DNA of 60,252 nt from Gonapodya prolifera JEL478 (lineage: Eukaryota > Monoblepharomycota > Monoblepharidomycetes > Monoblepharidales > Gonapodyaceae): assembly GCA_001574975.1 (NCBI GenBank), contig KQ965767.1, positions 20,815-81,066 on the forward strand, in the 5' to 3' direction. The notes under the pieces are model-generated. The model saw nothing but the letters and a program-made list of their open reading frames with translations, did no database searches and was not told the origin of the DNA. Shown here one piece after another: positions 3,885-46,119 of the stretch. Position numbers and translations under genes: made by a program. The stretch's first letter is position 1. Each line of letters starts with the position of its first letter.

Positions 3885-3924
3885 CTGTGATGAAAAAAGT
3901 GGTTTCAAGATCAATCATGCTCAC

Positions 3925-6081: not shown

Positions 6082-6627
6082 TGTCGTGCGCACCAGTTTG
6101 TTTCTGTGTCTGAATGGCTCGTTTCGCAATAGTGCCTATGAGAATACGACTAGAACTCCCCCGCGAACCGCTGCTTCTCTTCTCCATATCTCTACTTTCA
6201 TTTGAGCTTCTGCTTCTTGTCCTCGTGTGGTTTCTCTCTTGCTCTTGGATCTCTTCCGGGACTCAGCTCACACTCGCCCCAGCACCCGTCCCACGCTCTC
6301 TCACCCTAAGGACCGCAACCAGCGCCCTCACGGCTTGCAGACCACAATTATGGATCTCGTCCAAAGTTATTGACGAGCAACACATAATTTCAACCAGCCG
6401 CTCCTGTAAGGAGGGAGGGGACATTTCTTGCAGAACTTGGTAACACGGAGAGGGAACACGGGAGATGAATTTTCTCGCACTCGCTCCTCGCTTTCCAGCA
6501 AAAGTTGCAAGGCTGAATTATATATCACAATGCTATCATAACCGACGAATCTGATAAAAATTAGATCGGCCTTCCAATATATTAAGCGATAACAGTTCTC
6601 AATTCCCGCATTTTTTAACTCCAAGTC
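6082..6627. other. Intergenic, nothing recognised
   Basis: Lies between the 3' end of the kinase-LRR gene (6628) and the start of the next minus-strand gene (6081). Pyrimidine-rich on the plus strand. No domain or RNA gene seen. Confidence 0.4.
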
Positions 6628-9230
6628 CTAAAGATAGATGTTCAGACTGGGTAAGCTCTTTAGCCCTTCGCGAAGGGCAGTCACTCCGTTGTCTCCAATA
6701 TTGTTATCTGGTTGACCAACACTCAACACGAAACCGCACAAACAGCAAGAAGGTGATCCAACTCACCTTCGAGATGCAAAGAAATGAGGTTCGTAAGACT
6801 CTTGAGCCCTTTTGCAAAGGCCTTTGCCCCACCATCTCCGATTAAATTGTCTGTACCGCCGAACATTGTCACAGTGTCAGACGCTGCAACGTCAGTGGAC
6901 TCAACTCACAAGAAAGATCCAAAGTTGCGAGACTGGTCAAGTTTTTGAGTCCTTCAGCAAGGGCCTTCGCTCCAATATCTCCAGTGCTGTTATCTGCAAA
7001 GGCATTTGACGATGTCGGAAAACCATCTTCCAAACCTTGAGCAATGCGTCTTACCTCCGAGATTTAATACAGTGAGGTGGGTGAGGCCCTTGAGTGCTTC
7101 TCCGAGGGCCTTTGCTCCAACATTTCCAAATGCGTTGCCTGCGCAATTGAAAATACAATCACGTCATGCGTGACAAAGCTTTCACGTATTATCACTAACC
7201 CTTGAGGTCCAGAGTAGTGAGGCTGGTCAGGCTCTTTATCCCTTCACTGAGACCCTTCACACCATCGTCTGCAAACTCATTCCCTACAGTGCACTCAAGA
7301 TTGAAATTGGAGTCACAGGACACACAAAATTCAATTCAAATTACCGGAAAGATCCAACGTAGTGAGATTCGTCAGGTCCTTGATTCCCTTGCCAATGGCC
7401 GTTGCTCCATCGTCTCCGAGACCATTATCTGCACATCCAACCATATTCAGACGCTGTGTCACCTGACCCAACGCTGCCTGATTCAACTCACGACATAGAT
7501 TTAAGCCAGTGAGGCCTTTTAGGCTTTTCAGAGCTTCGCCAAGGGACTCTGCTCCGTCATCTGAGATGCTGTTCCCTGTAACATCCGAGAGAGACTGGTC
7601 ATTGGATCACGCAGCACGAAACACATATGATCAACTTACAAGAAAGATCCCACGTAGAGAGGCTGGTCGCGCCACTGAGTCCGTCCGCAAGGGCCTTTAT
7701 GCCTTCGTCTCCAATTTCGTTCCCTACACCAAAATCCAAATATCATCGTCCATGAACCCTGACAATGTGCCAAGTGTCGCTAAGTTGCCAGACTCCACTT
7801 ACGGCTCAAAACCAGCGTAGTAAGAGTTTTCTTCATGCCTTTTAGCCCTTCTGCAAGTGCAATAGCTCCGTCATCTCCAATTTGATTCCCTGTCCAATTG
7901 ATTTCTCAAAGTTCCATATCACATAGAAAATTATGTAACGCAACTCACGCCTTATATACAAAAACACGAGACTGTGAAGACCTTTGAGGCCTTCACTGAG
8001 GGCCTTTGCGCCATCATCTCCAATTTGGTTCCCTTACCGTTTCACAACTTGAGTCCAAGCCAGTCACATCACATTTGGCAAATTTCAACTCACAGGAGAG
8101 GTCCAAAGATGCGAGGTGCTTCAGCTCCTTCATCCCTTCACGAAGAGCGCTTGCTCCGTCCTTTCCGATTTGGTTGTCTAAACCAACAGCCATTCTTGCA
8201 GTGACACTTGACAGACACAGCAACTTGGCTTACAAGCAAGATTCAAAGAAGAAAGATTTCCAATGGTCTTCAGCCCTTCAGAAAGAGCCCTCACACCATT
8301 GTCCCCAATTTGGTTTTCTAATCAATTAACCATGAGTCCATGCAGAGCCCACTGCAGCACAAAACATCTCACCGTTGAGATCAAAAATGCTGAGACTGGT
8401 CAAGCCCTTGATCCCTTCAGCAAGGGCCTTTGCTCCATCATCGCCGATGTCGTTGCCTTTAGATTGAAGCCCAAACGGATTACTGTAATTCAAATCGAGA
8501 CCACAAACATTGAAACTCACTTTGAACGTCCAAATAATGCAAATTGGTTTGCATGCGAATGGCTCCAGCGAGCTCAACCATACCAGTAGGACCCATTCCG
8601 AGTCCTGTGCAGCAAAAAAAAGTCGTAAGGTTTGTTTTGAAGAAATAGCATGACTTCGCTTACCTGCAACGTTGAGTTTCTGCAATTTTCTCAGATTTGA
8701 TAGAGCTTTTGCGAGAAAAGCAGCACCCGATTTTCCGAAGTTGTTGTCTACCATGGTGGTTTCATGAATGAAGCAGAGTATACGATTGCGAGACAGCGTG
8801 AGGGCACTCAACATGCAAGACTCAAATGAGTCAGATTTTCAAGTCTTTTGAAAAAGGGCACCATTGCCCCCATATTCTGTTCAGTCAAATTGATATCTGC
8901 GGGCGCAATAAAGGAATATTGTTGTACAAAAACAAACACGAGGTTAGATTCTTACCTGCAAGGTTAAGTTGCTCCAGTGTTTCTTTTGAGCTGAGTGCAC
9001 CCGGAAGTTGGGGTAGTTTCCCAGCAGTTGGGTTGCCTAAATTGAACATAAGTCAATCAAATTTGAAAAAAATCTTCTGGATCGACCATACGCACTGGAT
9101 ACATCCAAAAGCATCAGCTTACCACACTCTGCAAGAGAAGCCGTGATAGATTCCAGAACCTCCGGGTTAACACCTGACCACGCAACTCTTAGCAGAAGAG
9201 CACTGGCGTGGCTTCAATCATATCTCACTT
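6628..9230 (-). repeat. Array of one-LRR-per-exon modules
   Basis: About 17 leucine-rich repeats are each encoded by one exon of about 84 bases (28 residues) separated by introns of about 55-75 bases. Units follow [20 protein letters not shown]. Introns sit after the first base of the codon for the leading Asp/Gly/Glu, so exons are symmetrical (phase 1-1) and can be gained, lost or skipped without shifting the frame. Units near 8.8-9.1 kb (N-terminal) are more divergent; the last unit ends the protein at 6628. Confidence 0.85.
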
Positions 9231-11055
9231 TTTAGCCAGAGGTGCGTGAGATCCGAGTCATCCATATCAATTACGGCATTCAATTGCTCTATGTCGGAGG
9301 GGCTCAATGATTTCCCTAAAGGGTGTGTCAAAGTGCAAAAGTCACCACTCGTCACTCACTCCATCACGAGCAATAAATAAATTAAACTGCGTGTTCAACA
9401 AACCTTGTAGACATACTTTGAAGGTCCTGTTTCGTGCATACGGGATGACCGCCATCGCAACTTCGAGATCGAATATGTCATTTACCAAAGGAATCCATCC
9501 TGTCTTGCCAGTTCGAAGATTTTTCACTCGGCAAATGGCGCGATCACTATCCCAGTGAGTAACTTGGACTTCATCGCCAGGTTCGACTTCAATCTCCCTT
9601 CGAGATGTGGGAACGTATGGTACTCTGAGATTGAGCAGCAAGCCAGACCTTGGTTCAGAACTATGCCGAAGTAACTGTACTGCAATCCCACTTCACCTCG
9701 CGCGAAGAACCCATCCCGCAAGACTCGCAAAGCACGAGGAATCCATTGCTTTGCGCTCGTCAGTGCGATCTTTGTCGATAGATTCATCTGAAAACCAAAG
9801 CTCCCGATCTTTTTGAGATCGAAGTTCTGCATTTTATAAAAATACAGTTCATGCAAATTTCCTTTAGGAAGCAACAGTGTCGTCAGGAAAAACAGCGACA
9901 TACCTTGACGAACTTCCGTAAAGTTCGCAGAATCTGGACTATGATAGGAAACAAGAAAACAGATGAAGACAGCAGGAGCCTAATTTGGTGCGCTTATGGG
10001 CGATGTACTCACACATACGGTTGTAGTGCCGTCACGATATCGTTAAATGAAGGCCGGGATTTCGGACTGTCATCCCAGCATTTTTGCACGAGGGAGATAA
10101 CCTCTTCAGGCACATCTGCTAGACAGGACACATCTGGCCGCTTCTTATCGACAATTGCTTGGGCGATTTCAGTGTCAGTGTTATAGCCTTCGAATGGTTT
10201 TTTCCCCGAAAGCATCTGCATCAATGGTTTGAGCTCCACTGGGTTGTTACATCTACGAACACAAAAACTCACTGAGAACGCGGTCATGCCATACGCAAAA
10301 ACGTCGCCAGCCTTAGTGGTTGGTTCTCCGAAGAACCTTTCCGGCGGCATGTAAGCAGTCGTACCAACCCGATCGCCTTTTGTCGTTTCTGAGTTGCCCA
10401 TTTTGACAGACCCAAAGTCAACCAAGCGAGCATTCCCGTTCTCGTCGACCATCACGTTGATCGCCTTCAAGTCTGCGTGTATTATGTTGAGAGAGTGCAA
10501 ATACTCCATCCCACGGGCAATGCCATAAAGCTGTGAAGAGGACATTTGAATCCGATAACAATAGCAGAGTTATAGATGAAAGGAGCTCACCAGCTTGAGC
10601 TTATCGCCGCCTGGGGTCTTTTCGAGATAGGTTCGGCAATCACCGTTTTTCATATACGGTGAAGCCATGAAGAAGCACTCTTGGTGGACACCATTCCATT
10701 TCCAGCTGTAGGAGCCTGCGCCATACAATGGCATTACGTTGGGATGGTCTTTCAGTTTCCACCAGGCAGCTGCTTCGCGTCGAAATGCTTCCGCGTGCTC
10801 CTGAATATGTGGACTCGCAAACTTGGGATCGAGGACCTTGATGGCAACTCCTGAGATGCCGCGAACTTCGCCCAGGAAGACTCTGCTGTATCCACCTGCG
10901 CCGACACTGTAGTCTTGACACTTGACCATGCGTGAATCTTTGAACCATGGTTCCTCCTCGATCGGAGCTTGACCTTGATCCTGAATCGGCCCTTTCGAGT
11001 CCCGGCTCTGTCCTTCCGCGAGCATTTGGAATGGGTGGATGCGCGATTGCAACAT
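6628..11055 (-). CDS. TKL-like protein kinase with SH3 domain and LRR array
   Basis: Exons 11055-10591, 10530-10273, 10215-10019, 9938-9904, 9826-9697, 9660-9404 and 9315-9229 join in phase, followed by about 17 LRR exons down to a TAG at 6628. Kinase features: glycine loop [15 protein letters not shown] lysine, HADLKAIN catalytic loop (HRD arginine replaced by Ala, so non-RD), DFG and MPPERF. A charged linker ([13 protein letters not shown]) leads to an SH3 domain ([10 protein letters not shown]...TGKTGWIP) at about 9640-9480; its usual first Trp is missing. LRRs of RNI type follow. Predicted length is near 950-1000 residues; the join between the 9229 exon and the first LRR exon is not phase-resolved. 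Likely an intracellular signalling or scaffold kinase; ligand and target are unknown. The ATG at 11055 is the first in frame after an upstream stop. Confidence 0.75.
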
Positions 11056-12496
11056 TCGGTGAGAACTGGTCCGAGAACTGTTCCAGTTCGATTGACGTTT
11101 GATGAAATGCAGCTCCCATCAATCACTTTCATTATAGAATAGAGTGGTTTGACTTGGTCGCGGTAGTCGCTCCAAAGAGTTTGTGCAACATTTATGAGCC
11201 GGGGGCAACGGTGTCCATGGAATGTCAGTCTGACACACCGCGAATGCAATCAATTCATTTTGTCGAAAATTTGGATCTCTAGTTGCATAAAGTCATATTG
11301 TGTAGCTAACGCCGAAACAAGTTTCACGTCCCCGCTTCTCATTCCTACTTGCGATCTGTCAGTCTCCTTCACCACCGGTAACTGGCCGGATTCTGCGCAA
11401 TGTGGTGCCGGGCCCTTCCTCTCTTCGTATGCAGAGTTCGCCGATGAAGCTTTCCGCGCCAGCGGGGTACAGCCTACACTAATTTTGGCGGTGTCGTGGT
11501 AAACAGTCTCGCTTTCCGCACAGCCAGTGCCCTACAAGGGAAGCCAAACGTACAAAAGCGTTAGTACGTCCACAGTGCTTGTGTGCAAAAATCGATGACA
11601 CAGAGAAAGAACTTATGAACACAACCTTGCGTGACGTGTTCATAACCCACCGAGTGACTTCGCCACTCACTGACGCAAAGTTGTGAAGGAAAAGAATCGG
11701 ACATCGGTAACCATGAAGACGTTAGGGCTTGTGGAAGCAGACGTTTGTGCGAAATGAGCACAGTGTCCAGTCATTGAGGTTTCAATTGACGAGATCGACG
11801 TTCTGATCTGCTGTGAGGTAACTGAGGTGGCAGCGGGAGTAGCCAGAGGGGCGGCCAGAATGACAGCTTGACAAGCTGACAGATCATGATTCGACAGAAA
11901 CAGTGCCAGTACTGTCGTTCCTCTCCATGGAGGTTCTACGAGAGCTCCAATGCGGTTCCACGGACGTCCCTCCGTCGACCTCCTGCTCACCGACGTGACA
12001 TCGATCCCACCTTGACCAGATGCCTTCATTGATAGATCCGCCCAACACTCTGCTTACGAAAGGAGCTTTCCATCGCGTCCAGATGTAAATCGAGAAGATC
12101 CACTCGTCCGCTTGCACCATTATAAGGCTGTCATTTCCGGCACCATGCCGTTCGCTGTACGGGCTGCGCATGACGAGCGGCTGCGAACTAGCCGTTCTAT
12201 GAAGTCGGCAGACGTACGTATCTGTTCGCGGATTAAAAGCCGAGTATCAATGTAGCTAGGCTCCTATCGTGGCTCTTCGAGCTCAACGCGTCGTCAGTGG
12301 TGGTTCGGCGGTAAAAGATTTCGAATTGAGAGGCGCATTGCGACAAAGAGTCTCGAAAGGTGTTTTGAATGAGGAACGTGAGGCCACCGTGCGGTGATCG
12401 AAACGAGCTCTCCAGTTTCCATCTTTTTCCAAAGAGGACAAGCAGCAGTGCCACTTTTGTTGTGCGCCATGTTACCACAGCCATCTTCACCTCGAC
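11056..12496. other. Divergent intergenic region between kinase-LRR gene and COG2
   Basis: 1.4 kb with short open frames on both strands and no recognisable domain. It should hold the promoters of the minus-strand kinase gene and plus-strand COG2; no specific site is convincing by eye. Confidence 0.4.
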
Positions 12497-15329
12497 ATGT
12501 TTGCAATTGAGCCGAACACGGCCGACGCCAAATCTTCGCTGTCATTCTCGACGTTTGATCCCTCTCACTTTGAAGATGCGGACTTTGATCCTGCAGATTT
12601 TCTCTCGGAGCGGCGGGTCAGTGATGAAGTTCGGTGATGGCGGAATCCGTAACTTACACCAATGGATTGATGGCATCAAATTGTAGATGTTTCCACTGGA
12701 AATTCTCTCTAGAGGTACGTCTGATACTACTTTCTCCGTAATGTGGGACCTTGTTCAATCGATTCTTATTTAATCCACGAGCAGAGCTGACGAGTTTTCA
12801 GGCACTCCTTCGCTCCGACATGATGGACCTCATCAACCGCAATTCCGCTGACTTCATCAACCTATCCACCAATCTCATTGGGGTGGACTCCATTATCGAA
12901 AACGTTCGCGGACCTGCGGAACAAAAGCTTCGAGGATCGGTAACGGTGAGCTGATTCGCGGTCGGCCAAGCCTGATTGAAACGCCAAAAGTCATTGTGCT
13001 GCAGGATGTGCGTGACCTGATTCAAGATTCCGTGGACCAGATGAATACGAAGTTGGAGAAGCTTGGGCAGCTTCGAGAGCGAAAGGTGAGATATTTCACC
13101 GACTAGCGTACCACTGGCATGCTTGTAACTAACTCTTGCGTCAAGGCACTCCTCGAGCTTTTCATTGGGATACACGATGCTCTCGTGAAGGTGGAGGGTC
13201 TTCTTGCGGACATCTCGCAGAATTTCAGCTCCACTACAGATTCGGGAGAGGCAGGCGTCGCCCGAGACGTACCGTCACCTGATATGAAACTATTGGAGCG
13301 TGTCGCAATCGAGTACAATCAGCTCAGATATTCTGTTGAACGAGCACAAGGACTTCCCTTTGTAGAGAACTTGTCTGAGGTGAGCAATCTCAATAACCTC
13401 CTTGTCGATGTTGCCCCAAAACATTAACATTACTTTTTGTCCCAGCGAATCGCAACGGCAACTGAATCTCTGGAATCCATTCTCTCCACCATGCTCTCTG
13501 GGTTGCTTCTGGCATCAAGTGACCTACCCGAAGGCGCCGACAATGCAGAATCTGTTGCACTCACTCAATGCATGAGAATCTTTACCGGGATTCAGCGATC
13601 GGCGTTGGCGGAGCAGGTCGTCCGGGAGACGTTGGTGAAACCTTGCATAACCACGACACTGTCCCCCACAACGCCCGATATCTCGAGCGAACAGCTCAAC
13701 GACCTGTTCCATACTGCCTTGAAGACTCTCCAAAGGAAATGCGGAAAGATCATTCAGATTTCGGTGAACGTGAAGGATGCAGATTGCCATATCGTGGCAC
13801 ATTCAATCTTTCCCGAAGTGTGTTCGGCAATTGAAAGGCACATGCCGCAAATATTTATGCCCGGGATTGCGGACACGTTTCATAAGGTACGTTTCCCCCG
13901 TCATTTGTTGGTCGAGGGTAGTGTTTGAGTACATTTACAGAACTACACGGCGACGATGCGATTTATTATCGACCTCGAGTCTCTGGCGCCTTCTCTGGCG
14001 GAAGTTGTTTACCTCAGACAGCAACCGTATTATACTGACCTCATGAAGAAGTGGCAACTCCCCGTGTATTTTCAACTCCGATTTTCGCACATTTCTGCAG
14101 AGCTCGAGAACAGTCTGGCAAAGGATGCACTTGAGGACCCTACCAACTTCACCTCGAGAATTTCAGATGGTTCGAAACTTTCGATCCCGTCCAGTCGATG
14201 TGTCGTGGATCTTGTCAGGTACTGCTGGAGTGGCGACGTGTGGCTCCATATCTTGTCAGCACGGTTCTGGCGACTCACTCTTCAGGTGCGTAAAAGTAGC
14301 TCTATTCACAAGCCATTTTCCAGAATCCAACGTATCAGGGCTTTTCAGATCACCAGCAGATATTCGACGTGGCTCGAGAAGGACTTTCTTGGAAACCAAT
14401 CTGAGAGCTTGTGGAGTCTCGCTATTGGGTTCCGGAGGTGGATCGTTGCCACGCGAGATTTGGATGCACTGGATGGACTTGTGCGTAGCACTACTGGAAG
14501 CTTACACTCCCGCTCAAGTGTGCTTTATCAAACACTCGTTTTTAGCTACGAGAATGCTTTTCGGATGTCATTCGGGGCCGCTTGCCGCCCTCAGTCACCT
14601 CTAAATCAAGCCTTGAGGCGGATCTACTTCAAACACTCGACCCGGCCCGTCAGGCTCTCACATCAATCGGTCAACGTTTGAAAGAGCGTACTGTCGATGC
14701 CTCTTTTGAAGCGGTGAAGCAAATTCGGAATGTCCCCGGATTGTTCAGAAAAACAAACAAAGAGGTGAACCGAACTTCATCCTGGTGTCTTTAAATGAGG
14801 ACTGCTTATCGACGCTGAATGACAGCCGCCGACAAAACCATCACCTTACGTGTCGCAAATGTTTCGTGTCATCCTTGATCTATCATCCCCGTACGAGACA
14901 GAGCTGTCGCCAATGGTAACAGCCTGGAGAACCGACACTGTCCTTGAAGTGACCAGGAGGTAAGGCAAAACGATTACTTTTGGATTGTGAAGTCGTTACA
15001 GGTAAGGCATTGTGGATACCAGATACAGAGCAGCGGCCGAGGAATTACTTACGACGATTCGAAAGACTGAGGAATCTCTGAAGCGATTGAAGCGATCATT
15101 GAAGAAGTCGCAACCGGGAGAGGACGAAGCAGGGAATATGACAGACGAGGACAAGATTCGGATGCAGATTGCGCTTGACGCTCAGGCATTTGCCCACGAG
15201 GTTGGTGAATCTTTTCGCACACTGAAAGTTTCAGTCTACTGACTGTAAAGTCTCCAGCTCGAGCAGTTCGGTATCCTCCCCCAAGACCATGAAGAATACC
15301 AGGAACTTCTGCGTGTAGTCAAAATATGA
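12497..15329 (+). CDS. COG2: Conserved oligomeric Golgi complex subunit 2
   Basis: Twelve exons join in phase: 12497-12616, 12687-12714, 12785-12945, 13005-13085, 13146-13379, 13446-13886, 13941-14285, 14349-14480, 14546-14764, 14826-14959, 15023-15200 and 15258-15329, giving 714 residues, about the size of other COG2 proteins. The N terminus has the family signature: acidic FDP/DFD-like stretch with F.S.RR, then LLRSDMMDLINRNSADFINL and STNLIG. The C terminus has the KTEESLKRLKR and DEDKIRMQIALDAQ blocks. COG2 belongs to lobe A of the COG tether that captures retrograde intra-Golgi vesicles at the cytosolic face of the Golgi. The first exon is placed by its ATG at 12497 and a GTCAGT donor. 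The last short exon (22 codons) is the least certain part. Confidence 0.93.
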
Positions 15330-16263
15330 ATCGAAACATGATTTTACGGAATTATTTGCATAGCGCATCCAATCAGCTGAAATTATGTCACAAAATTCAA
15401 ACATCCATTTCGTTCGTTTCGAAGAATTGCTGTGTTCAGCTGTTGGATTCTTTCTCTTCTTGGAGGAGCTAGCTCCTTTATCCGACTCGATGGCAAACTT
15501 TGTTTTGTTCGATTGGATCTTGCCGCATCGGTTGGATACAGATTCTGGATTCCCAATTTGACGTTAACTGGCGACGACATAGTTCAACACCGAAACCACT
15601 CACAGCTGGGGTTTGGAGGAGAGTGTACGCGTTATGATCAAAGCGACAAAAGCGCCCGAGCTTTTACGCATCGCCAATGAGGTCAGCCCACACCGGATTC
15701 TTGGTCAGAGCCCCCGACCTCCCGACGATCCAAAGGGAACTCTTCGCTCGCGTCGCTGCTACATTTAAGCGACGGTCTTTGAAAATCATGCATCAGAGTC
15801 ATGAAATTCGATAGTAAAATGCTTTTGCTTATACCACTTGCAGCTCGAACACAAGTGAAGACGATGATGTCTTTGACAGTGCGGTTGACTTCTGAGGATC
15901 ACATGACACACACACACACACCCGTTGCCCACCACCATCCCAGATGCCGGCGCTGCTCGAACCGTCTCTCCCGGTTCAGGTTCCTCGACCGCGGCTCCGC
16001 ATGGTAGGCAGGTGAGTTTTTCTCTCTGCCGCGTGTGCCACTTCCGTTGCGGTCGCGTTGGGCTGAAACATCTGTTGGAATATGCGTCAGGCCCCACACC
16101 CCTCCTATCCAAAGCAGTTCGTGTACCTGCAACAATGCTTGGAAAGAACAGATAATATTTATCAATGCATAAATCTAGAATCTCCACACAACCAAATACA
16201 AAGAAAAGAAGAAGATATTGCAAAAGACCTGATGCTGATCGGGGAACCACACATCGATCATCG
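15330..16263. other. Intergenic, convergent gene ends
   Basis: Lies between the 3' ends of COG2 (plus) and the next gene (minus). It holds a short CA-dinucleotide tract at about 15906-15921 and no convincing coding frame. Confidence 0.45.
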
Positions 16264-23891: not shown

Positions 23892-25919
23892 TTAGATCCG
23901 CGATGAAACACAGTCCGTTCCCGGCGGCGGAGAAGTCGTCGTTATGGTCTGCGTTGAAAAAAATGCCCTTTCGTCGTTCCACAACTTCGACTGAATGGTC
24001 GTACGAAGCTCCACGGACGTATTCCGCCGTTTCTCGGCAGCCGCGGCGTCCTCCGCTGCCTCTGCGAGCTCGGTTGCCTTGTCGAGAACCAACACGGTGA
24101 TACACGACGATGCCGCTCCGCCATGTCCGCCTCCACGGAATGGCCCGTTCGGAAGGTGCACAAGCCCGTCCGTCCCATTGATTTGCGCCACGAAGTACTC
24201 GACGGTGCGCTTCCACAACCCCCAGTTACTGCGCAGGTGGGCAACGTCCCCGCTTCCCCGTACGTAGTGATAAACGCCAACACACCCAAATGCACGTAAT
24301 CCTGGTAAACCCATACCCACCAACCTTCAAGCCCGCCTCGTACCCGATCGGGAAAGCAAGCGCAATCTCGCCGCTCGGCAGTTGAGTCTGGATCTGCGCC
24401 TCCAGCGTCGACCCGAGCACTTCCCATCGCTGCGTCGACGCGGACACGATCCGAACGGTGTGGTACAGATCCCGCAACCACATCATGCGGTCGCGTTTGG
24501 CCCCGTCCGGGCAGACACCGGCGGGGTTTGGCTGGACACCGTACTCGGCGAGGATAGCGTCTGACTCGGAGGTGGATGTGGACGTGAGGTTGTTGGCGTA
24601 GAGCACTGTGCCGTTGAGCAGGTCCGTCGCGACTACGTTCCTGTACCGCGCGCGACAATCCTGCCACGCGCCGAACCCGAACCCGCCCATGAGCGATTCA
24701 GGCGCGGCGGAGTAAGAGGCGACAGAGACGTTGAGCACGGGCATGCTGTTGATGGCGACCGAAAGGTCGCCGTTGGCGCGGTATGTGGTGCGGAAACGGT
24801 ACTCCGTGTTCTCGTCGACGGAGAGAGGGAGAGAGAAGCGGTGTTGGTTTGTGATGGTCGTCCCGTTTGGTAAGACACGCCCGAACCCGACGTCGATGGT
24901 GTTGCGGGGGAGAGCGGTGTAGTCGTGGTTGAGGAACGAGGAGGCGGGCATGGAGCCGGTGAGCAGGAGTAAGATTCCGCCGCCGAGGCGGGCGACGATG
25001 GGCCATCCCTATATCATCGTGTAATTTGGAAAGTGGATGGCGCCAGTATGTTGGTTGGAGTACCAGTGACCGTACAACGTGATAATTTGGGAACGGAAAC
25101 CCACCACTCCCCACAACAGCCCGCCTCTCACAACCTGCGCGTCGAACCCGAGCGCGTAGTTCTTGAGCTCAGTCGTGAGATGGGACACCGCGGGTCTTTG
25201 ACTCTCCACGACAACTCCATCCTTGTCGACGAGCCAGGACGCCGGTTGCTCCTTCGGCGCGAGACACACAGCCTGGACCGCACGAGTTCCGAGTTTCCAT
25301 ATGGCGTTCAGCTCGCTGTCGTCGCTCTCAAAGTAGCCTGGGAGGTCGGAGGAGGGGAGGGATTGGAACGAGGCTCTTAACCTGACGGCAGTGAATGTTA
25401 CGGAGCCCTGATCGACGTTGAGGAGGCGAATGGACTGCCACCGTTGCCCGCCTTGGACTTGGAACGAAGACAGGCGACCGGTGGTCGTGACGTTAAATGT
25501 TTCGACGCGGAATGTGTTGTTGGAGACCAGTGACGAAATAGAATGGACCGTCAGAGTTTTCTGTGACGATAGTGGGGAACGCTTCAGAATACTTCACTTC
25601 AATCTGAAGCCCTGGTATGCTCAGCGACGAGATTTCGAACCAAGGCACACCCGCGACTTCGATTCCATAGCTAATGTGGCCAAGGGGTTGGTGCCGTCGA
25701 GCGTGAAGGTTGCGAATTTGGAAACGTGCGGGTCCAGCTTGGTCCCCACGTGCAGGCCGGTGGGAGTAAAGTCTTCTGGCCTTCTGCAGCGAGGACATGA
25801 TGTGCGTTAGTTGAGCGTTACATAAAAGAAAACGACAGCACCGCAACTCACGCAGTGGCAGTAACGCAGCCCAGGATGACGCCGATGACGAGCGCAGTCA
25901 GGAGACGCGTCTCGTGCAT
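23892..25919 (-). pseudogene. GH78 alpha-L-rhamnosidase-like gene with frame breaks
   Basis: The ATG at 25919 begins a signal peptide (MHETRLLTALVIGVILGCVTA). A phase-2 intron (25851-25785) leads to the beta-sandwich region (NNTFRVETFNVTTTG), then YFESDDSELNAIWKLGTR and the diagnostic CPDGAKRDRMMWLRDLYHTV motif of six-hairpin GH78 enzymes at about 24530-24460; the frame ends at a TAA at 23892. GH78 enzymes hydrolyse terminal alpha-L-rhamnose from pectic side chains and plant glycosides. The reading frame shifts at about 25685 (one base short), 25545 (one base long, restoring frame), about 24310 and about 24250, with good family sequence on both sides of each. It is therefore broken, or the consensus is wrong. 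It diverges from the rhamnose dehydrogenase gene over 286 bases. Confidence 0.8.
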
Positions 25920-26205
25920 TGTGTTGCAGTCGCGGTGGGAGAAGTCCGTTTCCTGCTTTTTGATTTGGCCCTGAATCGGAGCCAGGTTCTGGGTGACACC
26001 GCCCACGCCCACACGGAGACTCCATACTACGCGCACGGTGACGAGCTGGTGCGTGGTGGCAGAAACGCAAGGCCCGGGTGTTGGGAAACACACGTGACCG
26101 CGGGTAAGGGGGTTCACCCACGGGAAATGGCCCGACTTGCCGAGAGGGCGGCAGGCGCAGGCGGATCCCCACGCTTACTACACTCTGCTGTTACTACACT
26201 CTGGC
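25920..26205. promoter_or_regulatory. Shared divergent promoter of rhamnosidase and L-rhamnose dehydrogenase
   Basis: 286 bases separate the two start codons, so both genes must be driven from here. It contains a 13-base direct repeat next to the dehydrogenase ATG (26175-26203) and several GC-rich CCGCGG/CGCGG-like words. Co-regulation is inferred from layout only. Confidence 0.5.
26175..26203 (+). repeat. 13-base direct repeat in front of LRA1-like start codon
   Basis: TTACTACACTCTG occurs at 26175-26187 and again at 26191-26203, separated by CTG, ending two bases before the ATG at 26206. It could be a regulator site, a 5'-leader element or a small slippage duplication. Confidence 0.7.
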
Positions 26206-27055
26206 ATGTCGCTGCTGACGGACAAGGTCGCGGCAATCACGGGCGGCGTCACGGGAATCGGGCGCGCGATCGCACTNNNNNNNNNNNNNNNNNNNNNNNN
26301 NGTGGCCGTCAACCATTTCCCGGACGACAAGTCGGCGGAGCAGTTCCAGACGATGCTGAAGGAGGCGGGAGATAAGGCAGATGGCCACTTGATTGCGGTG
26401 CCGGGCGACATCAGGTTCCCCGAGACGGGCCAGAATCTCGTCAAGAAAGCCGTCGAGCGATGGGGCCGTTTGGACGTGCTCGTCTCCAACGCGGGTATCT
26501 GCGAGTTCTCCGAGTTCTTGACGTGAGACCCCAATCATTCATCGCGGTGGTATTGCCCAATTCCTCTATCTCGGTTCGTTCCCACCCGACAGTATGACCG
26601 CAGAACTCGTGAACCAAACCGTCGCCACCAACCTCAACGGCGCCTTCTTCGCCGTACAAGCCGCCGCTCAACAGATGGTCAAACAAACTCCCATCGGGGG
26701 CAGCATCATTGGCATATCCTCCATCTCGGCCCTCGTCGGTGGCGCAGGGCAGACCCACTACACCCCGACCAAAGCCGGCGTGCTCTCCCTCATGCAAAGC
26801 ACCGCGTGCGCGTTGGGCAAGTACAATATCAGATGCAATGCCCTCCTCCCGGGCACGATCAGGACGCAGCTCAACGATGTGGATCTGAGCGATGAGAATA
26901 AGAGAAAGTATATGGAGGGCAGGATTCCGTTGGGGAGGTTAGGTCAGACAACGGATTTGGCCGGGCCAGCGGTGTTTTTAGCCAGCGATTTGAGCGGATA
27001 TGTCACGGGCGCGCAGTTGTTGGTGGATGGAGGACTATTTGTCAACTTGCAGTAG
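26206..27055 (+). CDS. LRA1: L-rhamnose 1-dehydrogenase (short-chain dehydrogenase)
   Basis: Two exons (26206-26522, 26593-27055) give 259 residues, typical of a classical SDR. The nucleotide-binding motif is TGGVTGIG (residues about 13-20); SNAG follows, then catalytic Ser in ISSISAL and YTPTK. The C-terminal half (STACALGKYNIRCNALLPGT, EGRIPLGRLGQTTDLAGPA, LLVDGGLFVNLQ) matches what I recall of yeast LRA1, which oxidises L-rhamnose to L-rhamnono-1,4-lactone with NAD(P)+, the first step of the non-phosphorylative rhamnose pathway in the cytosol. Codons for about 8 residues near position 25-32 fall in a 25-base N-gap; frame is preserved across it at that gap length. Neighbours (GH78 rhamnosidase, 6-deoxyhexose-type permease) support the assignment over a generic SDR. 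Confidence 0.87.
26277..26301. other. Assembly gap, 25 N
   Basis: Unknown bases inside exon 1 of the L-rhamnose dehydrogenase gene. The same frame is open on both sides. Confidence 0.99.
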
Positions 27056-27478
27056 TGAGAAAAAAATAACAATCAACTGTAGTACGTTGTAGTTGGCAAT
27101 ACTCGGAATGTACGTTCTTCGACTGCTTCCTGCTTTTCCGCTGTTTCCATGTAGTAAAGCACATACAATCGAAGACGATCCTCGAAAATGCACTGGCACC
27201 TTTTGCTGAGGGATTCTTCGTCATTTTTGGGTGTGCCATATCTTCGGATAAAATGGAGCGAAACTGATGAAACGTACCGACGACTTGCTTGTTATTCCTC
27301 GCTGTAAATCCTCCAACATAAGTACGAAACTCCACAGATGAAACAAAAAGTGAAGAGAATTCCGGCCTTCTCTATTTCATCACGTTTTCGTTTTCATAGT
27401 TTACCAAGTCTATTGTCTACGTATGTCGTTGTAAATTTGATTCGCAGTTCGGTACAACTTTCGACCCCGGAGCTGCAC
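27056..27478. other. Intergenic between convergent genes
   Basis: 423 A+T-rich bases between the 3' ends of the rhamnose dehydrogenase and the hydroxyacid dehydrogenase. Poly(A)-rich signals follow the first stop (AAAAAAATAA region at about 27060). No gene seen. Confidence 0.55.
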
Positions 27479-28896
27479 TTATTTCCTGTACCGCGCCATA
27501 TCAATCTCGGCCGGCATAAGTTGTCCGTGGGCCCCCTTAATCCCATTCTCGACACACATAAGAGCCATCGAGTCTCTGATATACGCGGGAAAGGGGAGAG
27601 ATGGTTGTGAGCGAGTTGCGAGTCTGAGACGGAGAAGGAAAACAAGGAAAGCCGGTGTCTCACCTCGTTTCGACAGTGGCGGTACCCTGGTGCGGAAGCA
27701 GGACTGCGTTCTCGAGTGACAAGAGTTCGTGGTTCGGTGGGAGGGGTTCGGGGTCCATTACCTGTCAAGAACCAACACCAGTGAGACACAGACCAACCGC
27801 AAGTAGAAGAACATTCTTGCTCACGTCAAGTCCCGCTCCTTGCACCCACCCCTCCTTCAACCCCCTCACCAGCGCGTCTTGATCCACCACCGGCCCGCGG
27901 CCCACATTCACAACCCACCCGCCCTTCCCACCCCTCAACTTCCTCAAAAGCCTCTCGCCAACCATCCCCCTCGTGGACGCGTTGAGGTCACACGCGACCA
28001 CAAGCATGTCACTCTTCTCGGCAAGCAAGTCGGCCCCCGGGACGTACTCGAGCGAACCCTGGCCCGTGACGGTGGCCACGGGGACGGGCCGGATGTCGGT
28101 GTATCGGATGACGCAGCCGAATGGCGCTAGGCGGTATGCGCATTCGAGACCGACACGCCCGAGGCCGATGATGCCGATGTTGAGGTGGCGGAGGTCGTTG
28201 CCGAGTGGGATGTGGTTGACGGACCACTGGTGAAGGTACAAAGAATCGAAGTCGAAAGTCGAAGTCGAGACAAAGAAGAACGACATTACACCAGAGCGAA
28301 AACGATCCACCAGAACACGGACTGTAACGTACGTCACCCGACTTGAGCGCCTTCTGCATGCCGTTCCACTTGCGCAGGGTCGCCAGAACGAGCAACACGC
28401 AGGTCTCGGCAACGGCATGGTTCAGAATGGACGGGCTGTGGCCCAGTCTGACGCTTCGCGACGCAAGAGAGGGTACGGAGATGTGATCGAAGCCTACGGA
28501 CTGTTGTTGGAGAAACACGTCGTCGATTGGAGTTGAGACTGGAGAAGGTTGGTCGACCAAAGTACACACGCGAGGGGACTCACAGGAGTCGAAACGACTT
28601 TCAGTTCTGGCCCGCAGGCATCGAGGACTTCGTCGTTGACGGGGTTCAAGTATCCGACAAGCCCGTGGATTGGCTGGTTTTCGCGAATCAATTGGAGGAT
28701 CTCCGCTCTTCACAAGCAAAACCAACCCTCATGAGCAATCGATGGCACGATTCCGGTCCACCCCCGCACACGGCACATACCTCGACGCCTTTTCCGGCGG
28801 CGGACCAATCAGAACGATTGAGTCGTTGCGTGCGAGTTGCTCGACGGCGACTGGTCTGAGGCCACCGGGGCAGAAAATTCTGGGCTTGGTAGACAT
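27479..28896 (-). CDS. D-2-hydroxyacid dehydrogenase (glyoxylate/hydroxypyruvate reductase-like)
   Basis: Six phase-consistent exons (28896-28781, 28707-28584, 28500-28333, 28226-27825, 27761-27664, 27575-27479) give 334 residues, the usual family length. Features in order: [27 protein letters not shown]-binding GIIGLGRVG, catalytic Arg in [14 protein letters not shown], the Glu of MDPEPLPPN and the His of LLPHQGTAT. The pattern is closest to eukaryotic GRHPR, which reduces glyoxylate or hydroxypyruvate with NAD(P)H. It shares a 262-base divergent promoter with the sugar permease and converges on the rhamnose dehydrogenase, so it may act on a 2-oxo acid from deoxysugar breakdown. That role is inference; the reductase family is secure. 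Confidence 0.9.
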
Positions 28897-29158
28897 TGCG
28901 ACGGGGATTCCAAAAGAAGGAGATGGATTCAAACGCGGTGAGAAAGAAAGAAGGCAATCGGCGGATTCCACGCTGGAGATCGCGTGCAGAGTTTGAGGGT
29001 GTGGGGGCTCAGTCGCGGCTAATACGCTTTACCCCCGGCGGCAACTTTAGTAGGGCGCTGTCAGCAAAACCCTCAAATGTCCCCCGCAACGTGCTATATC
29101 AACCACCAGATTCGCGCTCCAGCGTATTCCCAACTTACCCCACGCAATCGATTGAGTC
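28897..29158. promoter_or_regulatory. Shared divergent promoter of hydroxyacid dehydrogenase and permease
   Basis: 262 bases between two divergent ATGs (28896 minus, 29159 plus). No unmistakable operator was seen. Confidence 0.5.
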
Positions 29159-30890
29159 ATGCCCGGCGGTGCAGTAGCAACGGGCGGCGCCTTCGCCAAC
29201 CCATTCAAGCAACCAATCGTCAAGCGTGGCTACGGTGAGTGGCAGTCTTCCGGAAATTCCGGAAAAGAGTGTTCACCAAACGTCTGCACCGTCTGCGTTA
29301 AGTCTGGCCATATCTTCTTGTAACGTCACTATTCTTCTTGTGGGGATTCGCCTACGGACTGCTCGACGTGCTCAACAAGCACTTCCAGAACGTGCTCGGA
29401 ATATCAAAGACCCAATCGACGACTTTGCAAGTGGCCTACTTTGGTGTTGGATACTTCTTGTAAGTCAACCCCGCACTTGGCTAGATCACTTTGGGAAAAT
29501 CCCTTCTCCTCATCGCTCCCATCCCAGGTTCTCTCCCATCGCCGGTGAAATTCTCAAACGCAAAGGCTACAAATTCACAGTCATCACCGGACTAGCATTC
29601 TGTAAGTACACTCATAGATACCCTCATCTCCTAGTTCACTCGCTAGACTGACCTACTCCATCTCCAGACTCCACGGGGGCCATCTTCTTCTGGCCCGTCG
29701 CCAAATTTTCGGTCGGCACCACCAACCCCGGCTCCATCTTCGCCGGCTTCGTGGTCTGCACCGCCGTGATCGCCTGCGGCCTCGCCACGCTCGAGGTCGC
29801 CGCCAACTCGTACGCGTCCGTGGTCCCGCCCGTCAAGTACGCCAACCTGCGCCTGCAATTCTCGCAGGCCTGCAACGGCGTCGCGTCCTTCACGGGTCCC
29901 CTCCTGGCCTCGCACGTGTTCTTCTCCGACGAGAACGCCGACAACTTGAACAACGTCCAGTGGGTCTACCTCGGCGTGTCCCTTCTGGGCGTCGCCATCG
30001 CCACGCTCTTCTTCTTCTCCGACATCCCCGAAGTCACCGAGGAGGCCCTGCAATCCGAAATCGAGGACCTCTCGCAGTACCCCGGCCTGACCGAAAAGCT
30101 CGCCAAACCCTTCTGGCACCAAACCCGCGCCATCACGGGCTTCGTCGCCCAGTTCCTCTACGTCGGCGCGCAGGTCACGATCGGGTCCTTCTTCCTCAAC
30201 TACACCGCCGAGAACGCTGGTATCGCTGACTCGCTTGGGTCAAACTTGCTCTCGTACGGTCTCATCATGTTCACCGTCGGGCGCTTCATCGGCACCGCCA
30301 TCTTGGTCTTCGTGTCGGGCCCCGTCGTCCTCTTTGGCGCGGCTACCATCGCGGCGATCCTTTCGATTCTTATCGGCACGCTTCATGGATGGTCCGGAGT
30401 CGTGAGTTTCGCTCTGCATCGATCTCATATGATGGAACTGTTCTCAAGCAGATTTTTTTTGTCTTCGCTTCGCCAGGTCTGCGCAATGCTGATCATGTTC
30501 TTCGAGTCGGTCCAGTTCCCTATCATCTTCGTCCTGTCGACCACAAACCTCGGCCGCCACACTCGCCGCGCATCCGCTCTTCTCGTCGTAAGTCCAAACT
30601 ATCCCGCTTCGAAACCTCTCCACATCTTACTAAATGTTCACTTTCCCATTCACTTACAGATGGGCATCTCCGGCGGCGCCGCCTTCCCCCCAATCCAAGG
30701 CGTTATCGCCGACACCTACGGCATCCGCCCCTCCTTCTTCATTGTCCTGCCCTGCTTCATCTACCTCATGCTCTGGGCCGTGTACATGTGGAACGAAGAG
30801 GGCCGCAGGGTTTGGGTCAGCAAGTCGGACGAGCCCGAGAGCCCGAGACTCAAGGCGGATGATAAGGTGGGGAAGCCGCTTGTGGCGTAA
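29159..30890 (+). CDS. MFS sugar permease, FucP (L-fucose:proton symporter) family
   Basis: Six phase-consistent exons (29159-29234, 29303-29459, 29528-29601, 29668-30401, 30477-30587, 30660-30890) give 460 residues. The FucP-type signature is at the first helix (SLFFLWGFAYGLLDVLNKHF), followed by FSPIAGEILKRKGYK, NSYASVVPP with LRLQFSQACNGVASFTGP, and about 12 hydrophobic segments. The C-terminal half has QFLYVGAQVTIGSFFLNY and GISGGAAFPPIQGVIAD. These transporters import L-fucose and related hexoses with protons across the plasma membrane. Next to a rhamnosidase and a rhamnose dehydrogenase, L-rhamnose is a reasonable substrate guess. Exon 2 starts after a TTAAG acceptor that restores frame. 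Confidence 0.92.
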
Positions 30891-34465: not shown

Positions 34466-35946
34466 CTAGGCTTTGTACGTCGACAGAGCCTCGAACTGCT
34501 TGAAGAAGTCGGGGGAGCGGATCTGCTTGAGCATGTCGTCTTCGACTTTTTTGAACTGGGAAGGGGGAAGGGGGAGGGGGGGAGAAGAAGAGTTCGAGGA
34601 AAGTCGGATGAATCATGAGCGAACAATGAAAGGGAAGGAATGGAAAACGCAGTCTGCATGATTGGCTCTTCCCTCAATTGAACTGTACACCGGCCCGCCA
34701 AATCCATCCCACCACCTTCGACCGACACTCACGTCAACAGTCGCCTGATAAATCGTCTCCTGGACCTCCTTCGGGATAATGCAGACGCCGTTCTCGTCAG
34801 CGTGGATGAGATCCCCCGTGCGCACGTACATCCCGTTGATGTTGGCGGGCACGCCGACGTCGTAGATGAAGGGGCGACCGTGAGCTACGACCAGGCCTGT
34901 GGATGTGGATGGAAGGAGTGGATACGTGGCAGGGAGAAGAGAGGACAAGGGATACGGATAAGAGTGATATGTCAGATGATCAATATGTCACAATAATTCA
35001 TTCCAACGAAATGATTCCACATACCTCGCCCAAAGTACCACAAATCACCCATCTCCCTAACCTCCTCAATATCCCTCACGCCCCCATCCGAAATAACTCC
35101 CACGGCGCCACACCTGCGAAACGTCGTTGCCATGATCTCGCCCAAATGGCAGGACCAGTCGATCTTTGCCGGGTCTCCGTCGTCGTCGATGCACACGACG
35201 ACAGGGAGAGGGTTGGTCTCCCCACCGGCTTGGTGCAGGGCGTGGATGGACGCGTACAGTTGGGGGTGCGCTTGGGCGACGGATTTGTGCTCGGTGGTGG
35301 AGTCCCCGCGGACGGTGACGGCGTAGGCGACCTGCGGGGAGTGGGAGTTGCAGGGGCACGAGGGGGGATCGAGGGAGGAGTGAGTACGGATCATTCGCCT
35401 CATTGTCATTCAAGTCGCTCCGGCTGAAATAGGGGGTCCGTTGTGTATTATTCGCCTCCGGCCGGAATATGCGCGTCGCGAAGATCATCTCGCTTCACTC
35501 GACAGCCTCGGTCAGCGCCGAGCGGCGCTTAGGCCTCGGTGTCGTCGCTCCGCTCGGAAGGCTCGCCCCCTCGCGAGACTCACCAGAGCCTTACCCTTTC
35601 CCTTTGCGAGGAGTCTCACGCCTGTGCCGGTGTATCCTTGAACACGGGGTTGGACTTTGAAAGTCTGCGTGCCGTCGAGTGGAGAATCGGCGGTCCAAGG
35701 AAACGAGAGGATGAGTGGAATCCAATGCCACGACGAATCAAATCTCCTACCCACCTCGATGGCATTCGCGATCGAGGGCGAGTCGATGGACGCCAGCTGC
35801 TCGAGCTGCTCCTTTGAGAGCGGCTTCCAGTCTGCGGGGCGGGATTGGTAGAAGTTAGAGCGAGGGAATCATCAGTAGCGAGCAGCAAGAAGCGACGCAC
35901 CGTTTGGCAGGAGTTCAGCGAGGGGGCCGGAGACGGCGACTGTCAT
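34466..35946 (-). CDS. RraA-family aldolase/decarboxylase-like protein
   Basis: Six phase-consistent exons (35946-35901, 35831-35755, 35664-35584, 35331-35025, 34896-34733, 34555-34466) give 254 residues. Features: SIDSPSIANAIETFKVQPR near the N terminus, WSCHLGEIMATTFRRCGAVG and SDGGVRDIEEVREM carrying the DGxxRD active-site motif, then PANINGMYVRTGDLIHADE. This fold includes 4-hydroxy-4-methyl-2-oxoglutarate/4-carboxy-4-hydroxy-2-oxoadipate aldolases and oxaloacetate decarboxylases: metal-dependent, making or using pyruvate enolate. The protein is longer than bacterial RraA, as is usual for fungal members. It lies 3.6 kb from the deoxysugar cluster; a role in cleaving a 2-keto-3-deoxy acid is possible but unproven. 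Confidence 0.88.
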
Positions 35947-43166: not shown

Positions 43167-44450
43167 CTACAACGACGCCGACCCGCCCGCAACCTCCTTC
43201 ACTCCCACCATCGCTTCATTTCTCCTGACCCACGGCAGGGCCCAGGGCGGGTTGTACCCCGCCGTTGTGACCTTTCCGTTCCTGATAAACGTGTCGATCT
43301 CCCATTTTCCGTCGGTTGCCAAAGCTTTGAGGAGTTCGGATCCCATGGTTTGGGAGAGCGACGTCGAGAGGAGACCGGACCGTCGCAGGACGGCGAGAGT
43401 CATGGGAGATTGGGTTTTGAGCTTGACGCGGGGGTCGACTGGGGTTGCGGGTGAGTAGATGATGTTTATAGTGCCCGACATACAGTACATTTGCCTTCAA
43501 CGATGGAAGAGAAGACACTCACGAGGCTCAGGAAGGTCCTCGACGGTCTTGTACTTGCTCGGCATGATGAAGGACATGGTCATGCTGGTTGTGGTTCCGT
43601 CCATCATAACGGGTGCCGTCTGATCATTGGAAATTGGGAGACATGGGAGAGATGGTCCAGGTACGAATAGAAGACAAGTTGAGGACGGGCCACCCACCAT
43701 GGCTATTTTCTCAGACGAGTTTGGTTCCATGAGCACGGGTGCTGTCTGTATAGGACGTCTCGAAATGATAAATGCCGGTCGAAGGGAAGGCAAGGGGGGA
43801 TCTTCAGCTCACCATAGCGATCTTTTCCGAAGAGTTTGGTTCCATGAGAACGGGTGCTGTCTGTTTCGGGGCAAGGGAGAAGGAGACGTTGGTTATCGAT
43901 CATCAAGAGTACTTTGAAATGTCCAAGAGAGTCTGCTCACCATGGCGACCTTCTCCCCCTCACTCCCGCCTCGTTTCTTGTTCTTGCCTGAACGGCGAAC
44001 GGGATATTGTCAATCGTACTCCACGGCTGAGGGAAGGCAAACACAACTTATCATCGACGTACTCACCGAAAATGTACCCCGCGACGGTCATGAAGCCTCC
44101 GCCATAATTGCCGTTCACGACCTCGTACGTCGTTTCTGCAACAATCAGCTGCGGGTACTGCCGGACTTCGAACCCGTGGGGTGATGTGTAGATGACTTTG
44201 TAGTCTGGTTGCTCGACATGCTGCCATCGGCACGGGGAGAGCCTCAGCGTCAACGCCAAAGCGCGAGATGCAGCTTCACGTTGCGTCCATCGCTCACCTC
44301 GTATCCAAAGATACTTCCCACTGCTCCCATTGCCTTGCCGAAACGCGACAGGAATCGACGGCCGTCGGGAAAGGAGACGACGATGACTGCGCCAATGAGC
44401 GCGGATGTTGCTATGGGATGTGCGCGTGCGAGCGTGACGACGGAGTTCAT
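43167..44450 (-). CDS. SOUL-family haem-binding protein
   Basis: Seven phase-consistent exons (44450-44298, 44220-44067, 43987-43941, 43860-43813, 43745-43698, 43619-43523, 43438-43167) give 272 residues, or 256 if one duplicated exon is skipped. An N-terminal hydrophobic helix (ATSALIGAVIVVSF) may anchor it in a membrane. The SOUL core reads YTSPHGFEVRQYPQLIVAET, GGGFMTVAGYIFGKNK, KIAMTAPV-type strands, FIMPSKY and the C-terminal YNPPWALPWVRRNE. SOUL/HEBP proteins bind tetrapyrroles; the role in fungi is not settled. Exons four and five encode the same 16 residues. Start chosen at the first ATG before the helix. Confidence 0.9.
43698..43860 (-). repeat. Tandemly duplicated 48-base micro-exon in the SOUL gene
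   Basis: Exons 43860-43813 and 43745-43698 are both 48 bases, phase 0 on both sides, and encode the identical peptide TAPVLMEPNSSEKIAM. They differ at 7 third-codon positions, all synonymous. Each has its own acceptor (AAACAG, ATACAG) and donor (GTGAGC, GTGGGT). Confidence 0.92.
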
Positions 44451-44622
44451 GCGAACGGGAAGGGAAACGCGGGTTGGTTGGACAAGTCGCGCGTAATGGG
44501 GTTGAAGCTCGCGCCGACGTGTCCGGACCCGAGATGCGTAATCGCATCAATTTACTCAATTATTAGAAAAAATGCGAATTTGCATATACGGATAGAGTGG
44601 TGTCCAACAACGTCTCGTATTG

Positions 44623-45695
44623 CTACACATCCATCTTTTCCTTTCTTTCTTCTATACATTGTGTCAGAAGTGCTAAACCTGCGCGACTATCTTCATCAAT
44701 TACACTGTCCTGTATTAATCTGTCAACCACGTGGTCCGCCAATATTGCTCCCCGTGCGAGCAAAATCTGAACAGTATCCTTGCTGCCACTACAAGCGCCC
44801 TTGTACAGCGCTTCTTCCTGAATTTCAGCACCACAGTCCAGAAGATAGCTTACGAGATCTGCCCTCCCATCTGTGGCCGCTGCAATGAGAGGTCCGCCAG
44901 ATAGGGAGTTGACATCGACTCCGAGTTTCAGGAAAAACTTCACGGCTTCCAAGTGGCCCCCATGAGCAGTTGTAACCAAATACCGCGCACATTGCTCCCC
45001 TTGCCGGCCAGGTGCACCAGAGTTCAGTTCAGCACCATAAGACAGCAAGATGTCAACGATGTCAAGGTAACCCCTTTGAAAAGCGAAATGCATTGCCAAA
45101 GCGATATCCCGTGGTCGATCAAATTCTTGGTCGAGCAACAAACGAACGGTGTCCTTCCGGCCCTTCGAAACAGCAGCCCGGAGGCAGATGTTCCGGTATC
45201 GTACCTGGCCAAGTCCACTCCCCGGTCCAGAAGGACTTTAAGAATGTCACTGTGTCCATGTGTAGACGCCTCCAAGACAGCGTTTCGAAAAGGACTTATT
45301 ACGATTATCGCTCCTGCGTTGAGCAAGAACTGAACAGCCTTCAAGTGTCCGTACGCTTCGGCCACTTGGAGTGGGAAGCATTTCTCCCCACGAAACTGGA
45401 CATGCGCGTTAACATCAGCACCGCGCTCGCACAGGTCACTGATGACGGAGACGTCTTCCACCCTTACAGCTTCCGCCACAAGCGCCATTTCCGGTGAGGC
45501 GTACCGGACGAGGGCACGCGACGCAATGTCTCTTGGATCGGATAATACGAGTCTCAAGTACCGATTGAGTGCGCCAGTGGGGAAGGCGAGGCGATTGGTG
45601 GGGGAGAATGTTGCGACCCGGGCGATGATTTCGGGGGGAAAGTCGAGGAGACGGAACCGGAACCCGTGCGACTCGGAGTTAGGTTCAGTCGCCAT
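44623..45695 (-). CDS. Ankyrin-repeat protein with F-box-like N terminus, one frame break
   Basis: The ATG at 45695 is followed by an F-box-like helix pair (FRLLDFPPEIIARVATFSP), then ankyrin repeats (AYGHLKAVQFLLNAGA, THGHSDILKVLLDRGVDL, SKGRKDTVRLLLDQ, QRGYLDIVDILLSYGAELN, HGGHLEAVKFFLKLGVDVN and others) to a stop at 44623; at least seven repeats. The frame slips by one base near 45210, inside the repeat after GVDLARY; the sequence on each side is normal ankyrin. An intron there would remove most of a repeat, so an indel is more likely. Function would be protein-protein adaptor. Confidence 0.75.
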
Positions 45696-46119
45696 CAGGC
45701 GTCGGTATGCAGCGCTTCGATGATGGGCCTTGGCAGGAAAGGAAGTGAAGGCCCAGGACTCGGTAGTCGCCAGGCACGACCAAAGCGCTTTCGTCGGTAA
45801 ACCAACTCACACTGATTCCGCCGTTTGCGCGCCAGTGGAGTTCCGTATCTGTTACTTCGACCAAGGTATCAGGAACTGGCTGTGGAACATCCTGAGCAAA
45901 CCGCTGAGCTCAATCGGCGACGTAATATCTTGGTCCTGAACTAAACCAAATGACTTGATCCAAAACTAAACTTCTGGATCATCTTTTCGAACCCCAGCAT
46001 ACCTCCTCTCTCTAAATAAGGTCACCCGAAATCCCTTCCTTCGCTTCCCCACCTTAGGTGAACGTCAATTCCTGTCCAACCACTCCACAGAGTCCAGCAC
46101 GTCCGGGCGATCCCGTCAG
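45696..46119. other. Intergenic, nothing recognised
   Basis: Upstream of the ankyrin gene. No convincing frame. Confidence 0.4.

Follow-up and report, generated by a model that had tools for sequence, protein, structure and literature searches.

The window analysed here, a stretch of 60,252 nucleotides from the Gonapodya prolifera JEL478 genome (contig C37, KQ965767.1, positions 20815–81066), contains a rearranged and partly decayed cluster, probably for the uptake and oxidation of L-rhamnose, a sugar of plant material. Within 7 kb it groups a remnant of an α-L-rhamnosidase gene of glycoside hydrolase family 78 (GH78), a gene for a short-chain dehydrogenase/reductase (SDR) of the LRA1 type, a gene for a D-2-hydroxyacid dehydrogenase resembling human GRHPR, and a gene for a FucP-type permease of the major facilitator superfamily (MFS). 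A first-pass annotation of this DNA had placed the release, the import and the first oxidation of L-rhamnose in these 7 kb. Import and oxidation by the permease and the SDR form the best reading of the locus, which we regard as fairly probable; release by the locus is not supported, since the GH78 gene is broken both here and on contig C83, where the cluster occurs a second time. The order and strands of the four genes, and the two divergent spacers of 286 and 262 bases, are as that annotation described them, with start codons at 25919 (−), 26206 (+), 28896 (−) and 29159 (+). The features, based on open frames and spliced models, are as follows:

23892–25919, minus strand: GH78 (α-L-rhamnosidase-like) pseudogene
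25920–26205, no strand: divergent spacer of 286 bases, its SDR promoter side conserved between the two copies
26206–27055, plus strand: LRA1-type L-rhamnose 1-dehydrogenase (SDR), exons 26206–26522 and 26593–27055, 259 amino acids (aa) including a short masked stretch
27479–28896, minus strand: D-2-hydroxyacid dehydrogenase, GRHPR-like, six exons, 334 aa
28897–29158, no strand: divergent spacer of 262 bases
29159–30890, plus strand: FucP/RhtA-type permease (MFS), six exons, 460 aa
34616–35868, minus strand: RraA-like gene (aldolase/decarboxylase fold), 3.7 kb past the permease

After splicing at GT-AG introns, the frames of the SDR, the dehydrogenase and the permease are all open and free of frameshifts; the models used at the search stage differed slightly from the final ones (336 aa for the dehydrogenase and 455 aa for the permease).

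The SDR is, by its sequence, an LRA1-type L-rhamnose 1-dehydrogenase, as had been proposed. With the 227 aa that follow the masked stretch as the query, the 7b81/7do5 group of structures, labelled simply as SDR in the match and taken by us to be the L-rhamnose dehydrogenase of Azotobacter vinelandii, is matched with 260.8 bits against 134.9 bits for the next solved SDR in the PDB, and among the NCBIfam models RhamDHLra1 reaches 323.9 bits, ahead of the archaeal L-rhamnose dehydrogenase (205.5) and FabG (171.4). Its motif reads TGGVTGIGR, with Thr, and the N, S, Y, K tetrad is found by eye at the expected places; in fungal LRA1 enzymes the motif is TGGxTGIG, and the Thr has been tied to the use of NAD+ (PMC12028159, in excerpt).

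For the permease, too, the family call was well founded. Its best NCBIfam model is fucP (185.9 bits, with gluP at 146.7), and Escherichia coli FucP (3o7q, 3o7p), with 136.6 bits, is its sole PDB protein at E ≤ 0.01; the carboxylates at FucP D46 and E135, presumably functional residues, are kept in the alignment. RhtA of Aspergillus niger, a proven L-rhamnose transporter, is of the same domain type as FucP (PMC5161314, in excerpt). A permease paralogue is located on contig C73 (208000–217999), with 69% identity over the longest exon; no partner gene was recognised near it, in a stretch where no family scan was made. The permease also bears on the view that the cluster serves L-fucose, alone or with other 6-deoxy sugars, rather than L-rhamnose: the protein is nearest to L-fucose symporter models, A. 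niger LraA has a weak, 55-fold lower activity on L-fucose, and the sugar is also a substrate of some LRA1 enzymes from yeasts and bacteria (PMC12028159, in excerpt). However, the SDR is nearest to L-rhamnose dehydrogenases, the GH78 remnant points to rhamnose, and RhtA, a permease of the same type, carries L-rhamnose (PMC5161314, in excerpt), and we consider an L-fucose cluster unlikely.

The name of GRHPR-like reductase given earlier to the product of the third gene is right as a family name, supported by PF02826 (144.8 bits) and PF00389 (60.7 bits), both over their cut-offs, and by the alignment with human GRHPR (2h1s/2gcg), its best solved relative with 193.4 bits; the family is that of D-2-hydroxyacid dehydrogenases and does not fix the substrate. 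In this alignment the protein keeps an Arg, a Glu and a His that we take to be catalytic in GRHPR. Two positions differ from the human enzyme: a Trp of GRHPR, presumably a dimer-interface residue, is replaced by a different residue, and after β-strand 2 an Asp is found (YTDIR) where GRHPR has Gly-Arg (YTGRQ). In Rossmann enzymes an Asp at the end of the second β-strand favours NAD(H), and its presence here suggests that the dehydrogenase prefers NAD(H) over NADP(H).

All four genes recur on contig C83, at about 207.1–214 kb, in the same order and inverted, with 86.1% identity over 5,767 alignment columns. Matching blocks are also found in the flanks, within the range 1.8–45.7 kb of the window. 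Two of these blocks enclose about 12.4 kb here (~3754–16124) and only ~0.3 kb in the C83 stretch (L011 4022–4323), a large structural difference between the copies. The mitochondrial RNA polymerase family PF00940 served as the control; it was likewise found twice (C76 and C99), with 92.4% identity over 2,843 columns, the outer parts of the compared 6-kb stretches being unmatched. Two haplotypes in one assembly are most likely the explanation of the C83 copy and the simplest one; a large segmental duplication is a less likely alternative. In C83 the dehydrogenase, the permease (its first exon judged by eye) and the compared part of the SDR are also open. Between the copies, the ratio of nonsynonymous to synonymous substitution rates (dN/dS) is 0.033 for the SDR (225 codons; bootstrap 0–0.085), 0.046 for the dehydrogenase (289 codons; 0.017–0.084), 0.074 for the permease (401 codons; 0.031–0.127) and 0.184 for GH78 (252 codons; 0.117–0.309), the bootstrap ranges of the last two overlapping slightly. 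These values come from filtered alignments, because the unfiltered ones crossed introns and frameshifts; they supersede the earlier values of 0.045, 0.242, 0.224 and 0.445, respectively, and the filtering thus lowers the GH78 value as well. The ratio of 0.18 for GH78 points to a gene that stayed under constraint during part of its history and was released from it late. Of the two spacers, the first has hardly changed in C83 over bases 23–286, its last 264 (248 matches against 10 mismatches and 7 gap columns), and the second is less conserved (220 matches against 35 mismatches and 11 gap columns).

The GH78 gene had been read as a working rhamnosidase gene at 23892–25919, and this does not hold: judged by its sequence, the window copy is not a working gene. 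Its joined read-through has a single PDB protein at E ≤ 1, the α-L-rhamnosidase 8iwd (E 1e-8); of its three fragments two have no Pfam match and the third reaches only 22.7 bits with MGH1-like_GH, less than that model's cut-off, and none matches an NCBIfam model. The measure of its decay is an intact paralogue on contig C109, modelled with 800 aa, two introns and no frameshift. Against this paralogue the window copy changes frame at about residues 35, 86, 456, 468 and 574, the same five under two alignment settings, and it aligns only up to residue 592 of 800, the last quarter being lost. In addition, 1,061 bases that lie between two matching blocks in the C83 gene are absent from the window copy, so the end of the frame at 23892 is a stop reached after this loss and not the ancestral gene end. 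Two further candidates were discarded: a stop near 25010 lies inside an intron that the C109 paralogue has too, and an intron near 24230–24320 is explained better by frameshifts, since the coding sequence of C109 is uninterrupted there. The C83 gene keeps the 3′ part; it is ragged around residues 224–293 and carries separate frame changes, e.g., near 441, 452, 602 and 738.

Some of the frame changes in the window copy are located near short single-base runs, where base-calling errors gather, and the catalytic residues of the middle part look kept in the 8iwd alignment (DGAKRDR...D), as would be expected if the gene worked and the frameshifts were errors of sequencing or assembly. Yet frameshifts are absent from the three neighbouring genes, the loss of 1,061 bases is not explained by faulty base calling, the C83 gene has other deletions and frame changes, and the C109 paralogue reads clean under the same method; a working gene is thus very improbable. 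The C109 gene (C109:82000–91999, at ~3.75 to 6.46 kb of that stretch) is unlinked to the cluster, with a kinesin-like frame upstream, identified by eye. The cluster has lost its hydrolase by different lesions in the two copies, and the genes for import and oxidation are still constrained.

The affinities of the SDR, the FucP-type permease, the dehydratase found in 75 of 80 bacterial loci described below, the dN/dS ratios, the intact frames and the GH78 lesions all support L-rhamnose import and oxidation. From these we infer the substrates, the direction of the reactions, the cofactor and the membership of the dehydrogenase in the pathway, in the following scheme. L-rhamnose would enter the cell through the FucP/RhtA-type permease, acting as a proton symporter, and would then be converted by the LRA1-type SDR to L-rhamnono-lactone, with NAD+ as the oxidant. 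An acid further down the pathway is the probable substrate of the linked D-2-hydroxyacid dehydrogenase, a gene kept by selection, and the release of rhamnose would be left to the intact GH78 enzyme of C109 or to other enzymes.

Several points weigh against this scheme. The 323.9 bits of the SDR stay below the RhamDHLra1 cut-off of 400, with a query lacking the first 32 residues; the model is covered only over residues 31–252 because the query started after the masked stretch of exon 1. The 185.9 bits of the permease are under the fucP equivalog cut-off of 280.4, and for this reason it is called FucP-type without being assigned as an L-fucose symporter. LraA-type enzymes show some L-fucose activity, and the rhtA orthologues of Aspergillus nidulans and Penicillium subrubescens are barely expressed on L-rhamnose (both PMC12028159, in excerpt), the latter calling for caution. 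The linkage of the four genes is observed only in two copies of one genome. Finally, the steps after LRA1 are hypothetical, as no gene for LRA3, the L-rhamnonate dehydratase, was detected: PF13378, found in 14 of 14 control genomes, has no match in the 47.56 Mb assembly of 207 contigs, and neither E. coli RhmD (at E ≤ 1) nor Sphingomonas RhmD (at E ≤ 10) has any.

The genome searches were carried out exon-wise and can miss genes, so that an empty result alone shows nothing. The reach of the RhmD query is indicated by its 362.5 bits with the Gibberella rhamnonate dehydratase 3fxg, and the same exon-wise search detects PF00920 (IlvD/EDD) with 15 matches on C60, C88, C2 and C29, perhaps two genes in two haplotypes. 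It also detects PF03328 (HpcH-type aldolase) with seven matches, five of them over the cut-off, on C18, C14, C25 and C13; of three such loci that were compared with E. coli YfaU, two still show a recognisable similarity (28–40% identity). In view of this reach and these detections, the absence of LRA3 from the genome is probable, though not proven.

The linkage of a GH78 gene with a FucP-type permease gene is not new, being known from the rhaB-rhtA pair of A. niger, in which the two stand in tandem and are co-regulated by RhaR (PMC5161314, in excerpt). The G. prolifera locus likewise has both in one small region; unlike in A. niger, its GH78 gene is a pseudogene, and LRA1 and the 2-hydroxyacid dehydrogenase lie between the two. 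An LRA1-type SDR within a small catabolic cluster is shared with the fungal LRA clusters, such as LRA1-4 of Scheffersomyces stipitis and lraA, lraB and lraC with rhaR of A. niger (PMC12028159, PMC7532622 and PMC4245848, in excerpt). The first-pass annotation was right that the gene set differs from those of the yeast clusters: a permease and a 2-hydroxyacid dehydrogenase are present instead, with no dehydratase detected in the genome and, among the 17 window proteins and fragments scanned against Pfam (not every frame), no lactonase or HpcH aldolase; LRA2 was not searched genome-wide. Bacterial and archaeal relatives of the SDR were also compared, namely the best 80 of at least 536, with neighbours taken at E ≤ 1e-6. 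In these best 80 loci, from Sphingomonadales and others, the SDR is 58–71% identical, and a homologue of L-rhamnonate dehydratase is found in the flank of 75, three of the remaining five having shortened flanks. None of the 80 has a homologue of the window dehydrogenase near the LRA1-type gene; a permease was found in one, GH78 in one (weak, 48.9 bits) and an E. coli-type aldolase for 2-keto-3-deoxy-L-rhamnonate (KDR) in six. Among the papers listed, none describes this gene set or LRA1 adjoining a 2-hydroxyacid dehydrogenase, the literature covered leaving out most subscription journals.

Whether the dehydrogenase is an unrecognised enzyme of the pathway or a neighbour with another job is about even. 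LRA1 and the permease may be a rhamnose pair beside which the dehydrogenase stands by chance as an ordinary glyoxylate/hydroxypyruvate reductase, with rhamnonate dehydrated by another family elsewhere, e.g., IlvD/EDD. Such an arrangement has somewhat less than an even chance, and its odds overlap with those of L-rhamnose import and oxidation because the two views of the dehydrogenase are so nearly balanced. It accords with GRHPR as the best solved relative of the dehydrogenase, with the PF00920 matches and the HpcH-type aldolase exons in the genome, with a spacer that the dehydrogenase has in common with the permease and not with LRA1, and with the proposal of alternative enzymes for missing steps (PMC9781776, in excerpt). 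Against it stands the position of the dehydrogenase between LRA1 and the permease, where it is equally constrained, although constraint alone carries no information on the pathway. That proposal concerns the basidiomycetes Phanerochaete chrysosporium and Dichomitus squalens, which grow poorly on L-rhamnose and have genes for its first and last steps and none for the second and third, i.e., they keep LRA1 and LRA4 without LRA2 and LRA3, as the excerpted text of this 2022 paper has it (PMC9781776). Basidiomycetes are not uniform in this respect, Cryptococcus neoformans being among the fungi with a partly conserved LRA cluster (PMC7532622, in excerpt). Of two marker families regarded as typical of agaricomycetes, PF20151 has no match in the present genome, nor any in the control genomes, and PF18759 has a single one of 39.5 bits, which is insufficient for a placement; the dense short introns and the two divergent copies might by themselves have hinted at an agaricomycete.

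Should the dehydrogenase belong to the pathway, a route without dehydratase can be drawn, which we consider quite improbable. In it the dehydrogenase would oxidise L-rhamnonate to 2-keto-L-rhamnonate, an RraA- or HpcH-type aldolase would cut the C3–C4 bond to give hydroxypyruvate and L-lactaldehyde, and a GRHPR-like reductase, perhaps the same enzyme, would convert hydroxypyruvate to D-glycerate. C2 of L-rhamnonate has the R configuration, which fits D-2-hydroxyacid dehydrogenases, and oxidation at this carbon would thus suit the enzyme. Candidate lyases are the HpcH-type aldolases elsewhere in the genome and the product of the RraA-like gene at 34.6–35.9 kb, itself an unproven candidate member of the cluster, from which an F-box gene separates the permease. 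PF03737 matches this gene with 38.6 bits at 34972–35409 and with 23.9 bits, slightly short of the 24.5 required, at 34616–34987; the outer exon, 35515–35868, has no Pfam match and was assigned by eye. The protein identity of the main exon to C83 is 85.9%, and the best solved relatives are 5x15, a 'putative transferase', and 3noj, a 4-carboxy-4-hydroxy-2-oxoadipate aldolase/oxaloacetate decarboxylase.

Promoter words common to both spacers were sought and discarded, 7- to 10-mers lying within the shuffle range (for 7-mers, 30 against a mean of 19.5 and a maximum of 56). GGGTAAR occurs in both spacers, at 26102, 29034 and 29140, which are three of its 11 occurrences in the window, and likewise upstream of the unlinked intact GH78 gene of C109 (near 85644), not at the C73 permease; the motif was picked after looking, and no significance is claimed for it. 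Elsewhere in the window are a gene for a SOUL heme-binding protein (43170–44559, −), a frame with ankyrin repeats (45027–45806, −) and a frame of 1005 codons that encodes a GATA zinc finger (52496–55510, +).

If the route without dehydratase were true, it would explain the use of L-rhamnose by fungi that have LRA1 and lack LRA2 and LRA3. An LRA1 gene beside genes for a transporter and a 2-hydroxyacid dehydrogenase, in a genome where LRA3 is undetected, provides a concrete candidate, accessible to experiment, for a step of rhamnose breakdown that is poorly explained.

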